From Allochromatium tepidum (GTDB lineage Bacteria; Pseudomonadota; Gammaproteobacteria; Chromatiales; Chromatiaceae), in NCBI RefSeq assembly GCF_018409545.1, contig NZ_AP024563.1:1690755-1754754 (forward strand): a DNA stretch of 64,000 nt, given 5' to 3'. The notes beneath the pieces are model-generated. The model worked only from the letters and a program-made list of their open reading frames with translations, was not told the origin of the DNA and made no database searches. The translations under genes were made by a program, and so were the position numbers. Positions 4,664 to 62,627 of the stretch are shown piece by piece; position 1 is the first letter of the stretch, and each line of letters begins with the position of its first letter.

Positions 4664-7300
4664 ATGTATCGTGAAACTCCGCATCCCATCCATCTCAAGG
4701 ACTATCGTCCGCCCGAGTTCCTGATCGATCGGGTGGAGCTACGCTTCGAGCTCGATCCCGAGTGCACGCGCGTCGAATCGCGGCTGGCGCTGCGGCGCAA
4801 TCCGGCGGCGACCCGGGGTGACGGCGATCTGCGTCTGCACGGCGAGCACCTGAAGCTGACGCAGGCGGCCATCGATGGTCATGTCCTGACGCCCGCCGAG
4901 TATCGCGTCGACGGCGAGGGGCTGACCCTGCATCGGGTGCCCGACCGCTTCAGTCTGGAGACTTGGGTCGAGATCCATCCCAGCCTCAACACCGCGCTCG
5001 AAGGGCTCTACCAGTCCGGCGATCTGCTCTGCACCCAGTGCGAGGCCGAGGGTTTCCGGCGCATCACCTATTTCCTCGACCGACCGGACGTGATGGCGCG
5101 CTACACCACCACGCTCATCGCCGACCGGACGCGCTTTCCGGTGCTCCTGTCCAACGGCAACCCGATCGCGCACGCCGAGCTTCCCGACGGTCGTCACAGC
5201 GTCACCTGGGACGATCCCTTCCCGAAGCCGAGCTATCTGTTCGCCCTGGTCGCCGGCGACCTGAGTGTGATCGAGGACGGCTTCGTCACCGCTTCGGGAC
5301 GGGACGTGAAGCTCCGGATCTTCGTCGAGCCGCACAATCTCGACAAGGGCGATCACGCCATGCGTTCGCTCAAGAAGGCGATGCGCTGGGACGAGGAGCG
5401 TTTCGGGCGCGAGTACGATCTGGACATCTACATGATCGTCGCCGTCAGCCACTTCAACATGGGCGCGATGGAGAACAAGGGACTCAACGTCTTCAACGAC
5501 AAGTTCGTGCTCGCCCATCCCGACACCGCGACCGACGTCGATTTCGACGGCATCGAGAGCGTCATCGCGCACGAGTATTTCCACAACTGGACCGGCAACC
5601 GCATCACCTGTCGCGACTGGTTCCAGTTGAGCCTGAAGGAAGGCTTCACCGTCTATCGCGATCAGGAGTTCTCATCCGACGTCGGCTCGCGCGCCGTCAA
5701 GCGCATCCGCGACGTGCGGACGCTGCGCGCCCATCAGTTCCCCGAGGACGCCGGCCCGCTGGCCCATCCGGTACGTCCCGATTCCTATATCGAGATCAAC
5801 AACTTCTACACCAACACCGTCTATGACAAGGGCGCCGAGGTGGTGCGGATGCAGGCCGCGCTGCTCGGTCCCGAGACCTTCAGGCGCGCGACCGATCTCT
5901 ATTTCGAGCGCCACGACGGCCAGGCCGTGACCACCGAGGACTTCGTGCGCTGCATGGAGGACGCGAGCGGTCGCGATCTGACCCGGTTCAGGCGCTGGTA
6001 CGAGCAGGCCGGTACGCCCGAGCTGCACATCCGGGGCGAGTACGACGCGACGGCCGGCACCTACAGCCTGAGCGTGCGCCAGCAGACACCGGCGACACCG
6101 GGGCAGCCGGTCAAACAGCCCTTCCATATTCCGCTGGCCATCGGGCTGCTCGGCGCCGATGGGCACGACCTGCCGGTGTGGCCGGCCGGCGAGTCGGAAC
6201 CTCCGGCACCCGGTACGCGCCTGCTGGAGCTGACCGAACCCGAGCACAGCTTCACCTTCACAGGTCTGAACGAACGCCCGGTGCCCTCGCTGCTGCGCGG
6301 CTTCTCGGCGCCGGTGCGGGTGCATGACGACCTGAGCGACGCCGACCGGATGTTCCTCATGGCCCACGACAGCGACGGCTTCAATCGCTGGGACGCCGCC
6401 CAGACGCTGCACGAGCGTCTGCTGCTGGCGCTGACGGCCGATGCGGCGCATCCCATCCCTGAGGACTACATCGCCGCCTGCCGGCGCGCCCTGCGTGACA
6501 CGACGGCCGATCGGGCGCTGCTCGCCGAGGTGCTGACCCTGCCGAGCGAGACCTATCTGAGCGACCAGATGACGGTGATCGATGTCGACGGGCTCTATCG
6601 TGCCCATCGTCAGCTGACGCGCCGGCTCGGCGAGCGGCTGCGCGCCGATCTGCTCGCCGTCCATCACGACAACGCCGAAACCGGACCCTATGTCTTCAGT
6701 CCCGAAGCGGTCGGTCGGCGCGCGCTCAAGAATCTGGCGCTGGCCTATCTGGTGCGCGCCGGGGACGAGGAGGGGTTGGCGCTCTGTCGCGCCCAGTTCG
6801 AGGCCGCGCACAACATGACCGACGTCATGGCCGCCCTGCGACTGCTGGCCGAACAGGGCGGGGCTGAAGCGGACGCCGCACTCGACACCTTCCATCGACG
6901 CTGGGCGGGCGAGTCGCTGGTGCTCGACAAGTGGTTCTCGGTCCAGGCCTCGGCCCCGCGCCCGGATGCCCTGGAACGGGTGATGATGCTCCTGAAACAT
7001 CCGGATTACAGCGCGCGCAACCCCAACCGCGTGCGCGCCCTGGTCAGCACTTTCAGCAACGTCAATCAGGTCCGCTTCCATGCCGCCGATGGGGCCGGTT
7101 ATCACTTCCTGGTCGACCGGGTGCTGGAACTCGATCCGGTCAATCCGCTGCTGGCCGCACGCCTGCTCAAGCCGCTGGTGCGCTGGCGCCGGTTCGACCC
7201 CGAGCGTCAGACGCTGATGCGGGCCGAGCTGGAGCGCGTGCTGGGCGGGCGTGACCTGTCGTCCGACGTCTTCGAGGTCGTCTCCAAGGCGCTGGCATGA
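4664..7300 (+). CDS. pepN: aminopeptidase N (M1 metallopeptidase)
   Basis: An 878-residue M1 aminopeptidase, close to E. coli PepN (870). The exopeptidase motif GAMEN is at about residues 266-270. The zinc motif is H303-E-Y-F-H307 with E326 as third ligand, an offset of +6 from E. coli numbering. It removes N-terminal residues from peptides in the cytoplasm. The start at 4664 (MYRETPHPIHLKDY) is chosen because it gives the family N-terminus; the open frame upstream overlaps grxC and is a shadow. Its stop overlaps the lptF start (ATGA). Confidence 0.97.
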   Translation: MYRETPHPIHLKDYRPPEFLIDRVELRFELDPECTRVESRLALRRNPAATRGDGDLRLHGEHLKLTQAAIDGHVLTPAEYRVDGEGLTLHRVPDRFSLETWVEIHPSLNTALEGLYQSGDLLCTQCEAEGFRRITYFLDRPDVMARYTTTLIADRTRFPVLLSNGNPIAHAELPDGRHSVTWDDPFPKPSYLFALVAGDLSVIEDGFVTASGRDVKLRIFVEPHNLDKGDHAMRSLKKAMRWDEERFGREYDLDIYMIVAVSHFNMGAMENKGLNVFNDKFVLAHPDTATDVDFDGIESVIAHEYFHNWTGNRITCRDWFQLSLKEGFTVYRDQEFSSDVGSRAVKRIRDVRTLRAHQFPEDAGPLAHPVRPDSYIEINNFYTNTVYDKGAEVVRMQAALLGPETFRRATDLYFERHDGQAVTTEDFVRCMEDASGRDLTRFRRWYEQAGTPELHIRGEYDATAGTYSLSVRQQTPATPGQPVKQPFHIPLAIGLLGADGHDLPVWPAGESEPPAPGTRLLELTEPEHSFTFTGLNERPVPSLLRGFSAPVRVHDDLSDADRMFLMAHDSDGFNRWDAAQTLHERLLLALTADAAHPIPEDYIAACRRALRDTTADRALLAEVLTLPSETYLSDQMTVIDVDGLYRAHRQLTRRLGERLRADLLAVHHDNAETGPYVFSPEAVGRRALKNLALAYLVRAGDEEGLALCRAQFEAAHNMTDVMAALRLLAEQGGAEADAALDTFHRRWAGESLVLDKWFSVQASAPRPDALERVMMLLKHPDYSARNPNRVRALVSTFSNVNQVRFHAADGAGYHFLVDRVLELDPVNPLLAARLLKPLVRWRRFDPERQTLMRAELERVLGGRDLSSDVFEVVSKALA

Positions 7301-58059: not shown

Positions 58060-58629
58060 TCACGCCTGGGCGGCGTCGGTGTCCTGGCCGGTCGGCACAT
58101 CCGCCCGCTTCGGTTCGGATTCGATGGTAACTGAGGCGCGCCGTTCGCCAAAGAGCGCGCCGATCCGCCGCTCCAGGCGCGCGATGTCGGCGTCGAGCAG
58201 CGCGCCGTCGGCGGCGTCGAGCGCGTGGACGGTCAGGACGTCGCCGCGCAGATCCGCGCTCAGCGTGCCCGGAAGCAGACTGAGGGTGTCGAGCAGCACC
58301 ACCCGGGCCGAGGCATTCGTCAGCCTGAGCGGATAGGTGTGTATGCCCGGCGCGATGTGCATCCGGGGCCGCATCACGCGCCAGGCCACGTCGAATGCGC
58401 CCTTGAGCGACTGCCAGAGAAAGAAGGGCACGAAGGCCAGGGCCGCGAGCAGGCGCGGCGACCCGCCGGCGCGCCGGCTCAGGTGCAGACTGGCCCAAGT
58501 CGCCGCGATCACGGCCGGCACGCCGATGATCCAGGAGGTCGGATCGGTCCCGGCGATCACCAGCCAGGCGCCGGCAAAGAGCACGAGGCGCCGCAGGCCG
58601 GCGCCGAGGGTCGGTTTGGATCGCGTCAT
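58060..58629 (-). CDS. mrpE: antiporter subunit MrpE/MnhE (first gene of the operon)
   Basis: A 189-residue MnhE protein. N-terminal helices (RLVLFAGAWLVIAGTDPTSW then IIGVPAVIAATWASL) are followed by a cytoplasmic domain. LTNASARVVLLDTLSLLPGT then LSADLRGDVLTVHALD is the family signature. A charged tail follows to the end. No promoter was recognised in the 260 bp upstream, which are shared with arsR. Confidence 0.9.
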   Translation of the reverse strand: MTRSKPTLGAGLRRLVLFAGAWLVIAGTDPTSWIIGVPAVIAATWASLHLSRRAGGSPRLLAALAFVPFFLWQSLKGAFDVAWRVMRPRMHIAPGIHTYPLRLTNASARVVLLDTLSLLPGTLSADLRGDVLTVHALDAADGALLDADIARLERRIGALFGERRASVTIESEPKRADVPTGQDTDAAQA

Positions 58630-58858
58630 CTATTCGGAATCTCCAGGCTGCGCGCCACGATTTGAGTCATTCGTGGACAATCTCCGGGATACGAGGTTCC
58701 CAAACTCAGGACAGATGGACCTCGGCTTCCAGAGCGCTCGAACTTTGGCATAACGCTCGGCGACGACCTGAGTCCGTCGAGTCTTGCCGGAGCAGGACCA
58801 GGCTCAGGCCGGCATCGCCGCCGTTGCCGAGCCTGGCGACCTGGTTCAGTACATACAT

Positions 58859-58890
58859 TTGAAAATATATATCGTCGAATGTATATTTTC
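58859..58890 (+). promoter_or_regulatory. arsR promoter overlapping a perfect palindromic operator
   Basis: TTGAAA (58859-58864) and TATATT (58882-58887) are separated by 17 bp, a consensus sigma-70 promoter. A perfect 9-bp inverted repeat GAAAATATA-(12 nt)-TATATTTTC spans 58861-58890, so a bound repressor would cover both boxes. The AT-rich stretch contrasts with the GC-rich surroundings. The expected transcription start falls at or next to ATG 58894, which suggests a leaderless mRNA. Confidence 0.75.
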
Positions 58891-58893
58891 GCC

Positions 58894-59111
58894 ATGCCGA
58901 CGATCACCCCACGCGATCTCTTTACCGCCCTGGCCCAGGATACGCGCCTGCGCTGTCTGCTGCTGCTCGCGACCCAGGGCGAGCTCTGTGTCTGCGAACT
59001 GACCCAAGCCACGGGCGTCGTTCAGCCGCATGTCTCGCGCCATCTGGCGCAATTGCGCGAGCTGGGTCTGGTGCAGGATCGGCGCGATGGGCTCTGGGTG
59101 CACTATCGTCT
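58894..59111 (+). pseudogene. arsR: arsR, 5' part (interrupted by IS607)
   Basis: The first ~73 residues of an ArsR/SmtB repressor. GELCVCELTQATGVVQPHVS holds the helix-3 As(III) site (C-x-C) and the start of the recognition helix, continuing RHLAQLRELGLVQDRRDGL. The frame is cut after WVHYRL; the next natural residues HPDLPDWIRAIL are found 2.08 kb downstream at 61192. The ATG at 58894 is preferred over 58879, which lies inside the operator. As it stands it would encode a truncated protein with a short IS-derived tail, stopping at 59127. Confidence 0.85.
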
Positions 59112-59115
59112 GTTC

Positions 59116-60513
59116 CTAAAAACCTAAACAAAGTTGCTTATGGTGGTTTTTAAGTGATTCGCTCTCCGTTGATAGCGCCCTGGTGGGCGAGCAACTGGAG
59201 TCCGGGTTGAGCAGTCCCAACCGGAGGCGCTCGGTCCGTGCCGGCAAGATCGCCTTGACCCGCTGGAACGGCGTGAACCGCTTGATGTCCGGGTCCGACA
59301 ACCTCGCCGGCACGTTTCGCGCCGCATTCTCGTCAGCCTGCAACACAACCCCGTCGGAACAGTAAAACCGATCCCCTTGCCGCTTGCCGTCGAGACAACC
59401 GGTTCGGGAATCCATTTGCGATGTGTAAGCCGGATTAACGAGAACGACCGTCGAACCTCGACGGCGTGAAACGCTGTCAAGCGCTTCGGCAATGACGCCT
59501 TTCGTCCAGGCGGCGAGCCTGCGATTGACGTTCTTGCCGAAGGACTTGCCGGACATGGGGGCGGTTAAATCTTCTGCGGCGATCACCGCTGCTTTGTCCA
59601 CGATCTTGTGGATCGCCTGAAACACTGTGTCGCGGATGCGCGCCTGGGTCTGGTCCATCTGCCGATCGAGCTTCCGGCGCCCGAGGTTGAAGTGGCGGAT
59701 GTGCTCGCGCTTGCGCGGGTTGCGGGTGCGATTGGCGATGGCGCGCAGTTTGGATCGGCGTTGGTACTTGGCTTTGAGCTTGTCGGAGGCGTCGGTGAGG
59801 AGCGCGCCCAATTCCCGGCCATGGTGCTCGCCATCGGAATCGACCAACACCTCGGAGTAGCCCTTGTCGACGCCAAGGGTGCGCGCGCCACAGTCGTGCT
59901 TGACCTCGGCTTCAATCGTGTAGTGGACTTCGAGACCCGCGTCCTTGAGGATGATCCGCAGGGTGCCGGTCGGCTCGACCGTGGTGTTGAGTGGAATGGC
60001 GATCCGTTGGCCTTTGACCAGGCCGGGGATCTTGATCCAGGTACGCCCGCCGAGCTGAAACGTCGTGTAGCTGTCCGAGCGCACGATGATTTGATTGTGC
60101 ATGTGGTTGTGTCCGCGCTTCCATTCCCGGCGCATGATCCGGCGCAGATAGGGATCGCCGGTCCAGCCCCGGCCCTTGAGGGCGGCGAACAGGCGTTGTT
60201 GTTCGGCCTTATCCTGGGTGTGCCGCCGGATCGAGCGGCGCGCCTTGACCTTAGCCGCTTCCATGTTGGCCGTGATGTCGCCCTTGGCGTCGCGCAGGGT
60301 TTCTTTCCAGGCATTGGCCAAGACCGGGAAGGTACGCCCGTCCCGCAGCCAGGCATCGCGAATCCGGCGATCCGACACGCCCACGCCCTGAAGGGAGCCA
60401 AAGCGCTGCCGGACTTCGGAGCGGATCACGCCCAAACGCCGCGCCTGTTCGCGCAGAGCCGCGAGCTTGCCTGGGTTCGGGCGCTTGGCGTGCAGAATGC
60501 GCGTGACTTTCAT
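59116..60513 (-). CDS. tnpB: IS607-associated TnpB RNA-guided nuclease
   Basis: A 465-residue TnpB, ancestor-type of Cas12. The RuvC triad is intact: D216 in LGVDKGYSE, E314 in AAEDLTAPM and D394 in ADENAARN. The zinc-finger region YTSQMDSRTGCLDG...FYC keeps only two cysteines, a common variant in this group. Family members cut DNA using an RNA made from their own 3' end and the flanking sequence. The stop codon lies only ~4 bp from the element end, so the guide RNA scaffold must overlap the coding region. It overlaps tnpA by 4 nt. Confidence 0.93.
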   Translation of the reverse strand: MKVTRILHAKRPNPGKLAALREQARRLGVIRSEVRQRFGSLQGVGVSDRRIRDAWLRDGRTFPVLANAWKETLRDAKGDITANMEAAKVKARRSIRRHTQDKAEQQRLFAALKGRGWTGDPYLRRIMRREWKRGHNHMHNQIIVRSDSYTTFQLGGRTWIKIPGLVKGQRIAIPLNTTVEPTGTLRIILKDAGLEVHYTIEAEVKHDCGARTLGVDKGYSEVLVDSDGEHHGRELGALLTDASDKLKAKYQRRSKLRAIANRTRNPRKREHIRHFNLGRRKLDRQMDQTQARIRDTVFQAIHKIVDKAAVIAAEDLTAPMSGKSFGKNVNRRLAAWTKGVIAEALDSVSRRRGSTVVLVNPAYTSQMDSRTGCLDGKRQGDRFYCSDGVVLQADENAARNVPARLSDPDIKRFTPFQRVKAILPARTERLRLGLLNPDSSCSPTRALSTESESLKNHHKQLCLGF

Positions 60514-61139
60514 TCACACAGATCCTTTGGCTGATGGAGCGACAGCCCCGCAAAATCCTCCTTGATGGACTGTTTATACTTGCGCATCCCGTGCAGCCGA
60601 CAACTAAAGGTATGGACGATCGCCATCAGGTCTTCGACCATCTCTTGCTCAGGCGAGAGCGATTCCTGGTTGACCACGACGATCTCGCAGCCGTTTTCGG
60701 CGGCGATGTGGGCGAAGAAATCGAAACCAAAGCGCATTAAGCGGTCTTTATGGGCAATCAGCAGTTGGCGTACGTCCCCACGCAGGATGCGATCGACCAG
60801 TGCAAGAAAGCGCTTGCGCTTGAAGTTCATCCCGCCGCCGATCTCTTGGATCCATTCATCGACCGCAATCCCCGCGCCCAGACAGTAAGCCTCCATCGCC
60901 CGCACCTGCGAGGCGAGATCGTCTTTTTGCCCGGCACTCGACACGCGGCAGTAGACCACCACGTCGCGCGTCTTCGGTGCCCCACCCAGCATCAAACGCA
61001 CGTCGGACTCATCGAAATACCGATGCCCCGACGGCAGCCGCTTGGCTTGCAGCTTCCCTTCAGCTTCCCAGCGCCGGATCGTCTGTGGCGACCGCCCAAG
61101 GCGTTTGGCAAACTCGCCAATGCTGTATTGCTTGCTCAT
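60510..61139 (-). CDS. tnpA: IS607 TnpA serine recombinase
   Basis: A 209-residue IS607-type transposase. The N-terminal MerR-like HTH (YSIGEFAKRLGRSPQTIRRW) is followed by the small serine-recombinase domain VVVYCRVSSAGQKDDLASQ, containing the catalytic Ser. Further conserved stretches are LLIAHKDRLMRFGFDF and CEIVVVNQESLSPEQEMVED. It inserts with little target specificity via a dinucleotide core and makes no long target duplication. Appears intact. Confidence 0.94.
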   Translation of the reverse strand: MSKQYSIGEFAKRLGRSPQTIRRWEAEGKLQAKRLPSGHRYFDESDVRLMLGGAPKTRDVVVYCRVSSAGQKDDLASQVRAMEAYCLGAGIAVDEWIQEIGGGMNFKRKRFLALVDRILRGDVRQLLIAHKDRLMRFGFDFFAHIAAENGCEIVVVNQESLSPEQEMVEDLMAIVHTFSCRLHGMRKYKQSIKEDFAGLSLHQPKDLCE

Positions 61140-61191
61140 AGCAAGAAATTATAGATAACTTTGATAACAAATCAAGGAACTGTTTTTTGCT

Positions 61192-61399
61192 CCACCCGGA
61201 CTTGCCGGACTGGATCCGCGCCATCCTGCGCGAGACTGTTGCGGTCGCCCACAGCCGATCACCCTTCATCGAGGACGCGCGCGCCCTGGCGGCGATGTCG
61301 AATCGACCCGCGCGCCCCGACGTTCCGGCGCCACTGTTGTTTGCAATACCCAGCGTTTCGAATCCATCCATCGATCCTGAGTCTCAACGGGAGCCTCCC
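61192..61399 (+). pseudogene. arsR: arsR, 3' part, in frame with arsC
   Basis: Starts with HPDLPDWIRAILRETVAVAH and continues to about ALAAMSNRPARP, the C-terminal dimerisation helix of ArsR. No stop codon follows: the frame runs through a ~30-residue Pro-rich linker directly into the arsC ATG at 61400. Without the IS element arsR and arsC would therefore have formed one continuous reading frame. Confidence 0.75.
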
Positions 61400-61945
61400 A
61401 TGTCCGAGCGTGTCTACAATGTGTTGTTTCTGTGCACCGGCAACTCGGCGCGTAGCATCCTCGCCGAGCGAATCCTCGAGCGCTGGGGCAATCGCCACTT
61501 CCGGGGCTTCAGCGCCGGCAGCCATCCCAAGGGCGCGGTACATCCGCTGGCCATCGAGATCCTGAAGCGCAACAACTATCTGACCGAGGGGCTGCGCAGT
61601 AAGGACTGGGCCGAGTTCGCCCAGCCCGATGCGCCGGTCATGGATTTCGTCTTCACCGTCTGCGATCAGGCCGCCGGCGAGGTCTGTCCGGTCTGGCCCG
61701 GCCAGCCGATGACGGCGCACTGGGGCCTGCCCGATCCGGCGGCGGTCGAGGGTGACGAGGTGGCGCGCATGATGGCCTTCCGTACCGCCTTCCGCGAGCT
61801 GGAGAACCGGATCAAGATCTTCACCGCCTTGCCGCTGGTCTCGATCGACCGGCTGAAGCTGCAACGTGAACTCGATCGGATCGGTCAGGCACATGCACCC
61901 GCGCCGTCCGAGTCCGACGCAAACCACACTGCAACCCACGCTTGA
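61400..61945 (+). CDS. arsC: arsenate reductase ArsC (low-molecular-weight phosphatase type)
   Basis: A 181-residue ArsC. The active-site loop is VLFLCTGNSARSILAE (C-x5-R-S). The second redox region VCDQAAGEVCPVWPGQ carries two further cysteines for the disulfide relay. It reduces arsenate to arsenite using thioredoxin or a similar donor. The ATG follows GGGAG by 6 nt. It is an extended-C-terminus variant. After the IS607 insertion its link to the arsR promoter is broken, so expression now depends on another start. Confidence 0.9.
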   Translation: MSERVYNVLFLCTGNSARSILAERILERWGNRHFRGFSAGSHPKGAVHPLAIEILKRNNYLTEGLRSKDWAEFAQPDAPVMDFVFTVCDQAAGEVCPVWPGQPMTAHWGLPDPAAVEGDEVARMMAFRTAFRELENRIKIFTALPLVSIDRLKLQRELDRIGQAHAPAPSESDANHTATHA

Positions 61946-61988
61946 AGCGAGGACTCATCACGGATCCGGCAGGAGGGATGGACTGACC

Positions 61989-62140
61989 ATGAAACTGCTC
62001 CATACCGCCGACTGGCAACTCGGTAAACCCTTCGCTCGGATCCCGACAAGCGGCGCCGGCTCCAGCAGGCGCGTCCGGACTGTCTGGAACGGCTCGCCGC
62101 GATCGCCCGTCGTGCGGACGCGCGGCTCATTCTGGTTACT
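61989..62140 (+). pseudogene. N-terminal remnant of an SbcD-like DNA repair exonuclease
   Basis: MKLLHTADWQLGKPFARI is the start of the SbcD/Mre11-type phosphoesterase, with the first metal-binding Asp and His. The homology then shifts frame (from ~62039) to DPDKRRRLQQARPDCLERLA then AIARRADARLILV, which is the next helix and strand. The rest of the enzyme, including the GDLFD and GNHD motifs, is missing. A frameshift and a large deletion made it nonfunctional. Confidence 0.7.
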
Positions 62141-62174
62141 TGTCAGAAACGGATTCGCGAACGAGTCACTGCCG

Positions 62175-62627
62175 ATGTGGATCAAACGTCTGCCGCTGTT
62201 CATCCTGCTGTTTTCGCTCTGGCCGGTCGGACTGCTCGCCGCGCCTGAGCCGAGTTCCGAGTTCGATACGCCGCCCCAAGCCATGACCGGCACCGAGGGC
62301 GAGCCGCGCGTCACGCTTCAGCTCTTCTGGTCGCGCAACTGTCCGCACTGTCGCTCGGCGCTCAGCTTCATCGAGACCCTGCGCGAGCGCGAACCCCGGC
62401 TCGACATCCAGACCTTCGATCTGCCCCAGGATCGCGCCAATCTCCAGCGCTATGTCGAGCAGGCGAGCGCACTCGGGGAAGAGGCGACGGCAGTACCGGC
62501 CTTCTTCGTCTGCGGGCGGATGCTGACCGGGTTCGACAGTGCGGAAGGGATCGGGCTGCTGATCGTCGCGCTGCCGGCGACCCGGCTCATTGCGCGTCTG
62601 ACCCGTCCCGGCAGGAATCCGGCATGA
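62175..62627 (+). CDS. periplasmic thioredoxin-fold protein (CPHC)
   Basis: A 150-residue protein with a signal peptide or N-terminal anchor (KRLPLFILLFSLWPVGLLAA) and a thioredoxin-like domain. The active site is NCPHCRSALSF, with cis-Pro in AVPAFFVCG. A third cysteine lies in FFVCGRML, as in some thiol reductases. It may be a DsbA/DsbC-like oxidoreductase or a glutaredoxin-like electron donor. The usual membrane partner is missing. The frame is open upstream through the SbcD remnant; the start at 62175 is chosen by the signal peptide. Its end overlaps the convergent EAL protein by 41 bp. Confidence 0.75.
   Translation: MWIKRLPLFILLFSLWPVGLLAAPEPSSEFDTPPQAMTGTEGEPRVTLQLFWSRNCPHCRSALSFIETLREREPRLDIQTFDLPQDRANLQRYVEQASALGEEATAVPAFFVCGRMLTGFDSAEGIGLLIVALPATRLIARLTRPGRNPA

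Follow-up and report, generated by a model that had tools for sequence, protein, structure and literature searches.

A family of gene-less MITEs with a predicted guide-RNA scaffold, related to an IS607-family element in an arsR-arsC fusion frame of Allochromatium tepidum

The genome of Allochromatium tepidum contains, in addition to an IS607-family element that interrupts an arsR gene, nine gene-less copies of about 330 bp each (L013-L021), and it is this family of MITEs, lying outside positions 59112-61191, rather than the arsR insertion, that is the larger find. The IS607-family element is inserted at a CT dinucleotide and bears a covarying RNA scaffold at its right end, and we consider it likely that the MITEs are passengers consisting of guide RNA only, which use TnpA and TnpB in trans. 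Taken alone, the arsR insertion is ordinary. All positions refer to the window, a stretch of 64,000 nucleotides (contig NZ_AP024563.1, positions 1,690,755 to 1,754,754 of the forward strand), which had previously been interpreted from its letters and open reading frames (below, the sequence-only reading).

The interrupted ArsR-ArsC frame

The features of the region are as follows:

58879..59111, + strand: 5' part of the arsR-arsC fusion, with an ArsR/SmtB HTH and the ELCVCEL motif (HTH_5, E=2.2e-15; NF033788, 90.1 bits)
59090..59109, - strand: predicted 20-nt guide, antisense to arsR (from its position after the scaffold, assuming that the guide begins past the AG core)
59110..59111, no strand given: CT core (AG on the - strand) at the right end (RE) of the element (sequence reading)
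59110..59223, - strand: putative scaffold of the reRNA (omega RNA), which overlaps tnpB at its 3' end (match of covariance model R2 at G000:C1:1749864-1749977)
59112..61191, - strand: IS607-family insertion element (sequence reading, ORFs, DNA search and curated protein model)
59116..60513, - strand: tnpB, predicted RNA-guided RuvC nuclease of 465 aa (ORF, domains and alignment)
60510..61139, - strand: tnpA, MerR-HTH and serine recombinase of 209 aa (ORF, domain search and curated model)
61166..61191, - strand: left-end (LE) tip common to the IS and the MITEs (L023 positions 5055-5082 correspond to window positions 61166-61193)
61190..61193, - strand: CTCC on the + strand, GGAG on the - strand, comprising the core and two host bases, predicted TAM (left-end reading)
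61192..61945, + strand: 3' part of the fusion, with the ArsR C-terminus, a linker and an LMW-PTPase-type arsenate reductase (LMWPc, E=6.9e-16)

Direct reading of the sequence gives an element of 2080 bp at 59112-61191, with its genes on the - strand, and recovers exactly the junctions of the sequence-only reading: the host sequence ...CACTATCGTCT runs up to 59111 and is followed from 59112 by the element, GTTCCTAAAAACC..., which ends in TGTTTTTTGCT at 61191, the host resuming with CCACCCGGAC from 61192. When 59111 is joined to 61192 a single open frame results, with no stop in either half, as that reading had also stated. Its naming of the target as arsR was right in that the insertion lies within the ArsR part, but the interrupted gene, to judge from its relatives, is an ArsR-linker-ArsC fusion frame and not arsR alone. 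The 5' part of arsR was matched in four of eight same-genus genomes, the window's own included, and in the three relatives that hold the locus (G003, G006 and G007) the element is absent and one uninterrupted frame, of 320, 322 and 328 aa between stops and gap-free at the junction, continues through the site into ArsC; it is because of this continuation that the gene is read as a fusion. The differences in linker length in the alignment of these relatives appear, by eye, to be multiples of three. The same three genomes bear on the idea that arsR naturally ends at 59127 and that the element merely adjoins it; the 82-aa ORF does stop there, but with the frame crossing the site in all three relatives the idea is refuted and we accord it practically no credence. 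Of the two observations which the sequence-only reading named as refuting it, neither holds.

The 82-aa remnant retains the HTH and the ELCVCEL motif and has lost the C-terminal part. The ArsC part contains an internal ATG at 61400, from which ArsC might be made alone. A second ArsC of the same kind is encoded elsewhere in the genome, in a 192-aa frame without ArsR (L070). No ArsR-ArsC fusion was recognized among the titles, beginnings of abstracts and passages covered by a search of open-licence papers.

The sequence-only reading had suggested a search for identical copies elsewhere in the genome. Two further full-length copies were found (97% and 95% DNA identity), neither of which is identical to the window copy, along with one truncated copy, one decayed copy and the nine MITEs. 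The full-length copies L009, L010 and L023 differ from one another in patches, with 0-21 differences per 130 bp, as expected for gene conversion between copies. The proposal of a recent and possibly still active insertion remains plausible, in view of the joined halves lacking a stop and of a dN/dS of 0.18-0.22 for tnpB between full copies, which indicates purifying selection; yet the full copies are 3-5% divergent mosaics, and there is therefore no evidence for a very recent burst. The IS found five plasmid records at 60-80% identity, none of them spanning 80% of the query. A further place, L022 (G000:C2:125278), has a CT followed by just 27 bp from the start of the right end and then by unrelated sequence; it is either a remnant or belongs to the end of a different element.

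The TnpA and TnpB proteins

Both genes, which overlap by 4 bases, are intact, as the sequence-only reading held, with ORFs of 209 aa for tnpA and 465 aa for tnpB. The assignment to the IS607 family made there is borne out by TnpA, which contains Resolvase and MerR domains and scores 222.8 bits against the IS607 equivalog NF033518 (cut-off 110). In TnpB the RuvC triad is conserved, with D216 in 77, E314 in 77 and D394 in all of the 78 rows aligned, some of which represent the same place twice, and a Cas12f1-like_TNB domain was found; against NCBIfam guided_TnpB the protein scores 99.5 bits, with a cut-off of 100. The CxxC...CxxC zinc finger of the TNB domain is not present as such: the window TnpB reads YTSQMDSRTGCLDGKRQGDRFYCSDG, with most cysteines missing, and the zinc-finger cysteines are likewise reduced in the related TnpB rows printed. 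A consensus that includes Actinobacteria has more of these cysteines than the window copy; it was built from 22 of 30 proteins, L232 having a stop and L225, L238, L246, L258, L262, L266 and L272 being left out for size. By sequence the best solved relative of TnpB is a Cas12f (9nzq, E=3.7e-7); the TnpB chains among solved structures come after it, with E=0.004 or higher. The structure predicted for TnpB was of insufficient quality for further use: its pTM is 0.39, and its pLDDT is below 50 at 202-226 and 308-406, the stretches that contain the catalytic residues. TnpB is 87% identical in Allochromatium palmeri, and the TnpB of G003 is also 87% identical.

Target core and empty alleles

At arsR and at the six further sites with an empty allele described below, the elements have inserted at a dinucleotide core, of which one copy is kept, and have produced no target duplication. 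The CT dinucleotide noted in the sequence-only reading is present at the insertion and precedes the right end in all 14 scaffold-bearing copies of this genome. The joined flanks of nine other insertions were sought in eight same-genus genomes, alignments that do not span the core being skipped, and for six of the nine (L009, L010, L015, L017, L018 and L020) at least one relative has an empty allele that is gap-free at the core. In these alleles the bases after the core are already present in the host; L014, L016 and L019 yielded no such allele from the eight genomes. The core bases vary in the empty alleles, being AT for L018 in G006 and differing in two of four L017 alleles, and the empty arsR alleles of the three relatives read CTGC, TTGC and CTCT, none of them CTCC. 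L017 (G000:C1:25260) is a MITE within a mazG-like frame, shortly ahead of sequence resembling uvrA (gene names by eye), and relatives hold the empty site for it.

At the left ends CTCC is found in 10 of 11 readable copies of this genome, L009 having CTCT; on the TnpB strand the motif reads GGAG, or AGAG at L009, and AGAG was also seen by eye before the left end in several G073 copies. From these flanks GGAG is predicted to be the TAM. It is close to the AGGAG given as the TAM of IS607 TnpB in 18 of 22 strains in PMC11061315.

The right-end scaffold

The right-end strand folds far better than its shuffles (z=-4.73). In an alignment of 29 distinct versions of the 112-nt scaffold from nine genomes, 91.9% of cells are paired, compared with 33-49% when the partner is slid by 1-3 columns, and 10 pairs show two-sided change; four of five covariation measures were reached by 0 of 500 shuffles, and the fifth, further pair types, by 8 of 500. 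Covariance model R2, among whose building rows is the window copy, matches 91 of 95 tnpB loci given to it, down to Streptomyces and Micromonospora (Actinobacteria), these being 95 of the 97 loci L204-L300 (L215 and L218 omitted), some of which are one place under two names. By eye, from its position relative to the tnpB match, the R2 match lies at the tnpB 3' end; the loci that have none (L228, L268, L292 and L294) are all cut by contig ends. The scaffold stretch is also coding in the window copy, and no tnpB frame leads into the scaffolds of the MITEs. The last helix of the scaffold occurs in several sequence types that are unrelated to one another and yet pair. The types of L012, L021, L086, L099, L108 and L122 stand against those of L009, L010 and L023 behind a conserved core, and this genome holds two last-helix types. 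An Rfam search of window positions 58500-62500 gave no RAGATH-18 match at E<=1 and nothing near the gathering score.

By likeness to published reRNAs, the guide would be the sequence flanking the right end, with a length of 20 nt as in PMC11061315. After excision the sequence matching the guide would come directly behind GGAG, and the window guide would match the empty arsR-arsC allele. The sequence-only reading had proposed that precise excision could restore arsR; this is plausible for a serine recombinase, but the right-end reRNA, whose predicted guide would fit the healed allele, had been overlooked. Since the predicted guide matches the empty allele, excision would tend to be reversed.

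The MITEs and their leader RNA

The MITEs were first seen as nine places at which a DNA search matched only the first 112-139 bases of the element. A typical unit has the same CT and an entire scaffold, followed by a middle region (about 190 bp) absent from the IS and by the left tip TTTTTTGCT; L013 is without the left end and L021 has another right-end type. The match of the LE tip extends over 28 bp, of which the last two are host CC, at 92.9% identity. Exact identity between MITE and IS ends at the foot of scaffold helix 1, element bases 1-112 being matched at 100% in L018; in other MITEs BLAST extends the IS match to 139, with gaps. The units have both IS ends (L013 apart), no transposase gene and several places of insertion, with empty alleles for L015, L017, L018 and L020. 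Searches of plasmids and phages with the MITE gave no match, and neither a MITE bearing a reRNA nor a mobile unit that combines a leader RNA with a complete scaffold was recognized among the titles, beginnings of abstracts and passages covered by searches of open-licence papers.

The middle of the MITE holds a structured RNA domain of about 172 nt, the leader, directly 5' of the scaffold and without counterpart in the IS sequence. Over 14 copies 95.5% of cells are paired, against 36-46% when slid, and 23 of 46 pairs show two-sided changes, with four of five measures reached by 0 of 500 shuffles and further pair types by 51 of 500. This alignment (A2) is a plain MAFFT alignment from 6 genomes, with rows picked by having the scaffold; it was not fitted to the structure, but the structure was derived from it. 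Over 29 distinct rows (A3) the figures are 94.7% paired and 31 of 46 pairs two-sided, with further pair types reached by 313 of 500 shuffles, in an alignment that was fitted to the model and leans towards its structure. The leader-structure model matched all 39 loci given to it. Rfam contains no match for the leader in L016 at up to E=10 or in L087, L088 and L084 at up to E=5, and none to RAGATH-18 in the MITE L016 at E<=10.

A search of 194 genomes of the family with R1, the leader model, gave matches in 12 of them at E<=0.01. Accepted among these are G000, G011, G052, G073, G118, G133, G488 and G546, and G039 has a partial copy. The matches in G003, G080 and G115 of the family and in G460 of the class, all at E>0.001, were taken as chance. 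In the class 4 of 369 genomes are matched, namely G000, G235 (at least 7 copies), G350 (at least 2) and one at chance level, the copy numbers per genome being lower bounds since no more than 7 or 14 candidates were scored in each. G235 and G350 belong to another family, and the leader therefore recurs in two families. Within the R1 loci of relatives (L163-L203), L166 and L188-L190 count as chance and L187 as partial, and L183 and L193 look identical including their flanks and may be one place. Of 14 copies inspected by eye in G235, G350, G488 and G546, 12 have the scaffold after the leader; of the other two, L169 is internally deleted and L179 continues into other sequence.

A consensus scan for promoters found none in the L016 stretch of the window's own genome. 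A TTGAYT-like box precedes the leader in several groups (by eye), and in the L197 stretch the scan gave 9 against 4.0 (sd 2.1) expected, one of which (1465-1493, 9 of 12) lies just before the leader; a promoter in this position is not convincing. An ORF inside the MITE leader was dropped because, by eye on the printed sequences, its frame did not seem to be kept between genera.

Proposed mechanism and alternative explanations

These observations can be brought together in a model in which TnpA, the serine recombinase, would move both the IS and the MITEs through the CT/AG core. TnpB would load the scaffold RNA, with a guide copied from whatever flanks the right end, and would cut element-free alleles next to (R)GAG, upon which repair from a sister copy would reinstate the element (retention or homing). 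For the arsR copy, TnpB is predicted to cut the healed arsR-arsC allele and so to favor re-copying. Each MITE would make an RNA composed of the leader (172 nt), the scaffold (112 nt) and its own guide, and would use TnpA and TnpB in trans both for movement and for its retention. In this RNA the leader may take the place of the 5' part contributed by the tnpB mRNA in the parent element. We regard this function of the MITEs in trans as the most likely reading, one in which we infer expression, cleavage and transposition from sequence.

A simpler account would have a plain IS607 insertion accompanied by ordinary MITEs, in which the 112 bp of the right end were kept as a binding site of TnpA and the leader is inert or a hairpin array acting at the DNA level. 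MITEs generally retain only terminal sequences, the LE tip common to the IS and the MITEs is short (28 bp with the host CC), and the right end may indeed have been kept for TnpA alone. Against this, the retained piece has its boundary at the foot of an RNA helix, the scaffold rows from MITEs also preserve the pairs, and the leader, which has no IS match, covaries as RNA across two families; we consider this account rather unlikely, though it is the strongest of the alternatives. Repurposed TnpB regulators are known, and the guides of the MITEs could match genomic sequences, so that the MITE RNA might be a trans-acting regulator through whose guides TnpB, or a nuclease-dead homologue, binds and does not cut. 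This appears improbable, given that the window TnpB retains its RuvC triad and shows purifying selection and that the obvious perfect match of each guide is its own empty site. Finally, IS elements with group I introns (IStrons) exist, and the leader, as a compact multi-helix RNA, invites comparison with a degenerate IStron intron or with a ribozyme that cleaves itself. The reading as a self-splicing intron was discarded because Rfam yields no match at the thresholds given above, and an origin of either kind seems highly improbable.

Relationship to known systems and implications

The window element resembles ISXfa1 of the IS607 family in its tnpA and tnpB, its dinucleotide core, a reRNA over the right end and a TAM adjoining the core (PMC10711439). 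There the core is GG and the TAM GGG, in contrast to the AG/CT core of the window element, whose TnpB of 465 aa has a reduced zinc finger and whose scaffold overlaps the tnpB stop. The combination of an IS607 TnpB with a right-end RNA is likewise found in ISFba1, the TnpB of which works with a RAGATH-18 reRNA; in PMC11061315, 64% of RAGATH-18 RNAs (10,258 of 16,029) adjoin an IS607 TnpB, the remaining 36% being, by difference, solitary. Unlike in that system, the RNA of the window and the MITEs has no Rfam RAGATH-18 match, and the solitary scaffolds here are whole mobile units with a leader. The MITEs also recall the PATEs of Haloquadratum, transposase-free miniature relatives of IS elements that make no target duplication, but PATEs are archaeal, of IS605 type, and described in the passages of PMC3119063 considered without a guide-RNA scaffold or leader domain. 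With TnpB-mediated retention and homing, and with plasmid gene drive, they share a predicted guide against the element-free allele; the elements treated in the passages considered of PMC8612924 and PMC11870625 carry their own tnpB, whereas the MITEs lack it.

If the MITEs act as read here, RNA-guided retention could be shared in trans, and TnpB would no longer be a private gene-drive device but a public good exploited by gene-less parasites. The MITEs would then provide, ready-made in nature, numerous guides that serve a single TnpB and, in their leader, a structured RNA domain not described before and associated with a Cas12-like nuclease. It also becomes directly testable whether a TnpB encoded at another place protects an element that lacks tnpB from being lost.

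Co-occurrence with TnpB and exchange of scaffolds

Of 11 genomes with MITEs, 10 have a TnpB (E<=1e-20), compared with 2 of 14 others (Fisher p=2e-4); these 14 are near relatives and not a random set, and one of the two positives, G003, has a chance-level R1 match. The exception, G546, has MITEs and no TnpB was found in its assembly, which is 88% complete and 14% contaminated. Scaffolds outnumber the nuclease genes in the window's own genome, where there are 14 of them as against three full tnpB, one over 456 of 465 aa and one decayed; at E<=0.001 the count is 28 scaffolds in G073 and likewise 28 in G235, including some weak matches.

The scaffolds bear signs of exchange between MITEs and resident IS. 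The scaffold of the window IS and of L009 recurs without a difference in six MITEs (L013-L018), which makes 8 sites in all, and that of L019 is 99.1% identical. L020 and L016 are 97.7% identical in the body and 88.6% in the scaffold, and the L020 scaffold is 98.2% identical to that of a G118 MITE (L081), the bodies being only 91.0% identical. In a comparison of 16 MITE scaffolds and 14 IS scaffolds, chosen from those available, one of three MITE scaffolds from G073 is 100% identical to the scaffold of an IS resident there, while the remaining ones reach 82% and 85%; against exchange, in G011, G118, G488 and G052 some other scaffold is closer to that of the MITE than the one of the resident IS compared. 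One possibility, which we put forward tentatively and hold at somewhat less than even, is a class of guide-RNA-only transposons that are built from a left end, which may carry a promoter, a leader and a full scaffold and parasitize TnpA and TnpB, such that one TnpB would serve many mobile guides and scaffolds would be exchanged with resident IS for compatibility.

The element has undergone a large expansion in G011, which has 26 TnpB matches, many of them partial, and 32 scaffolds.
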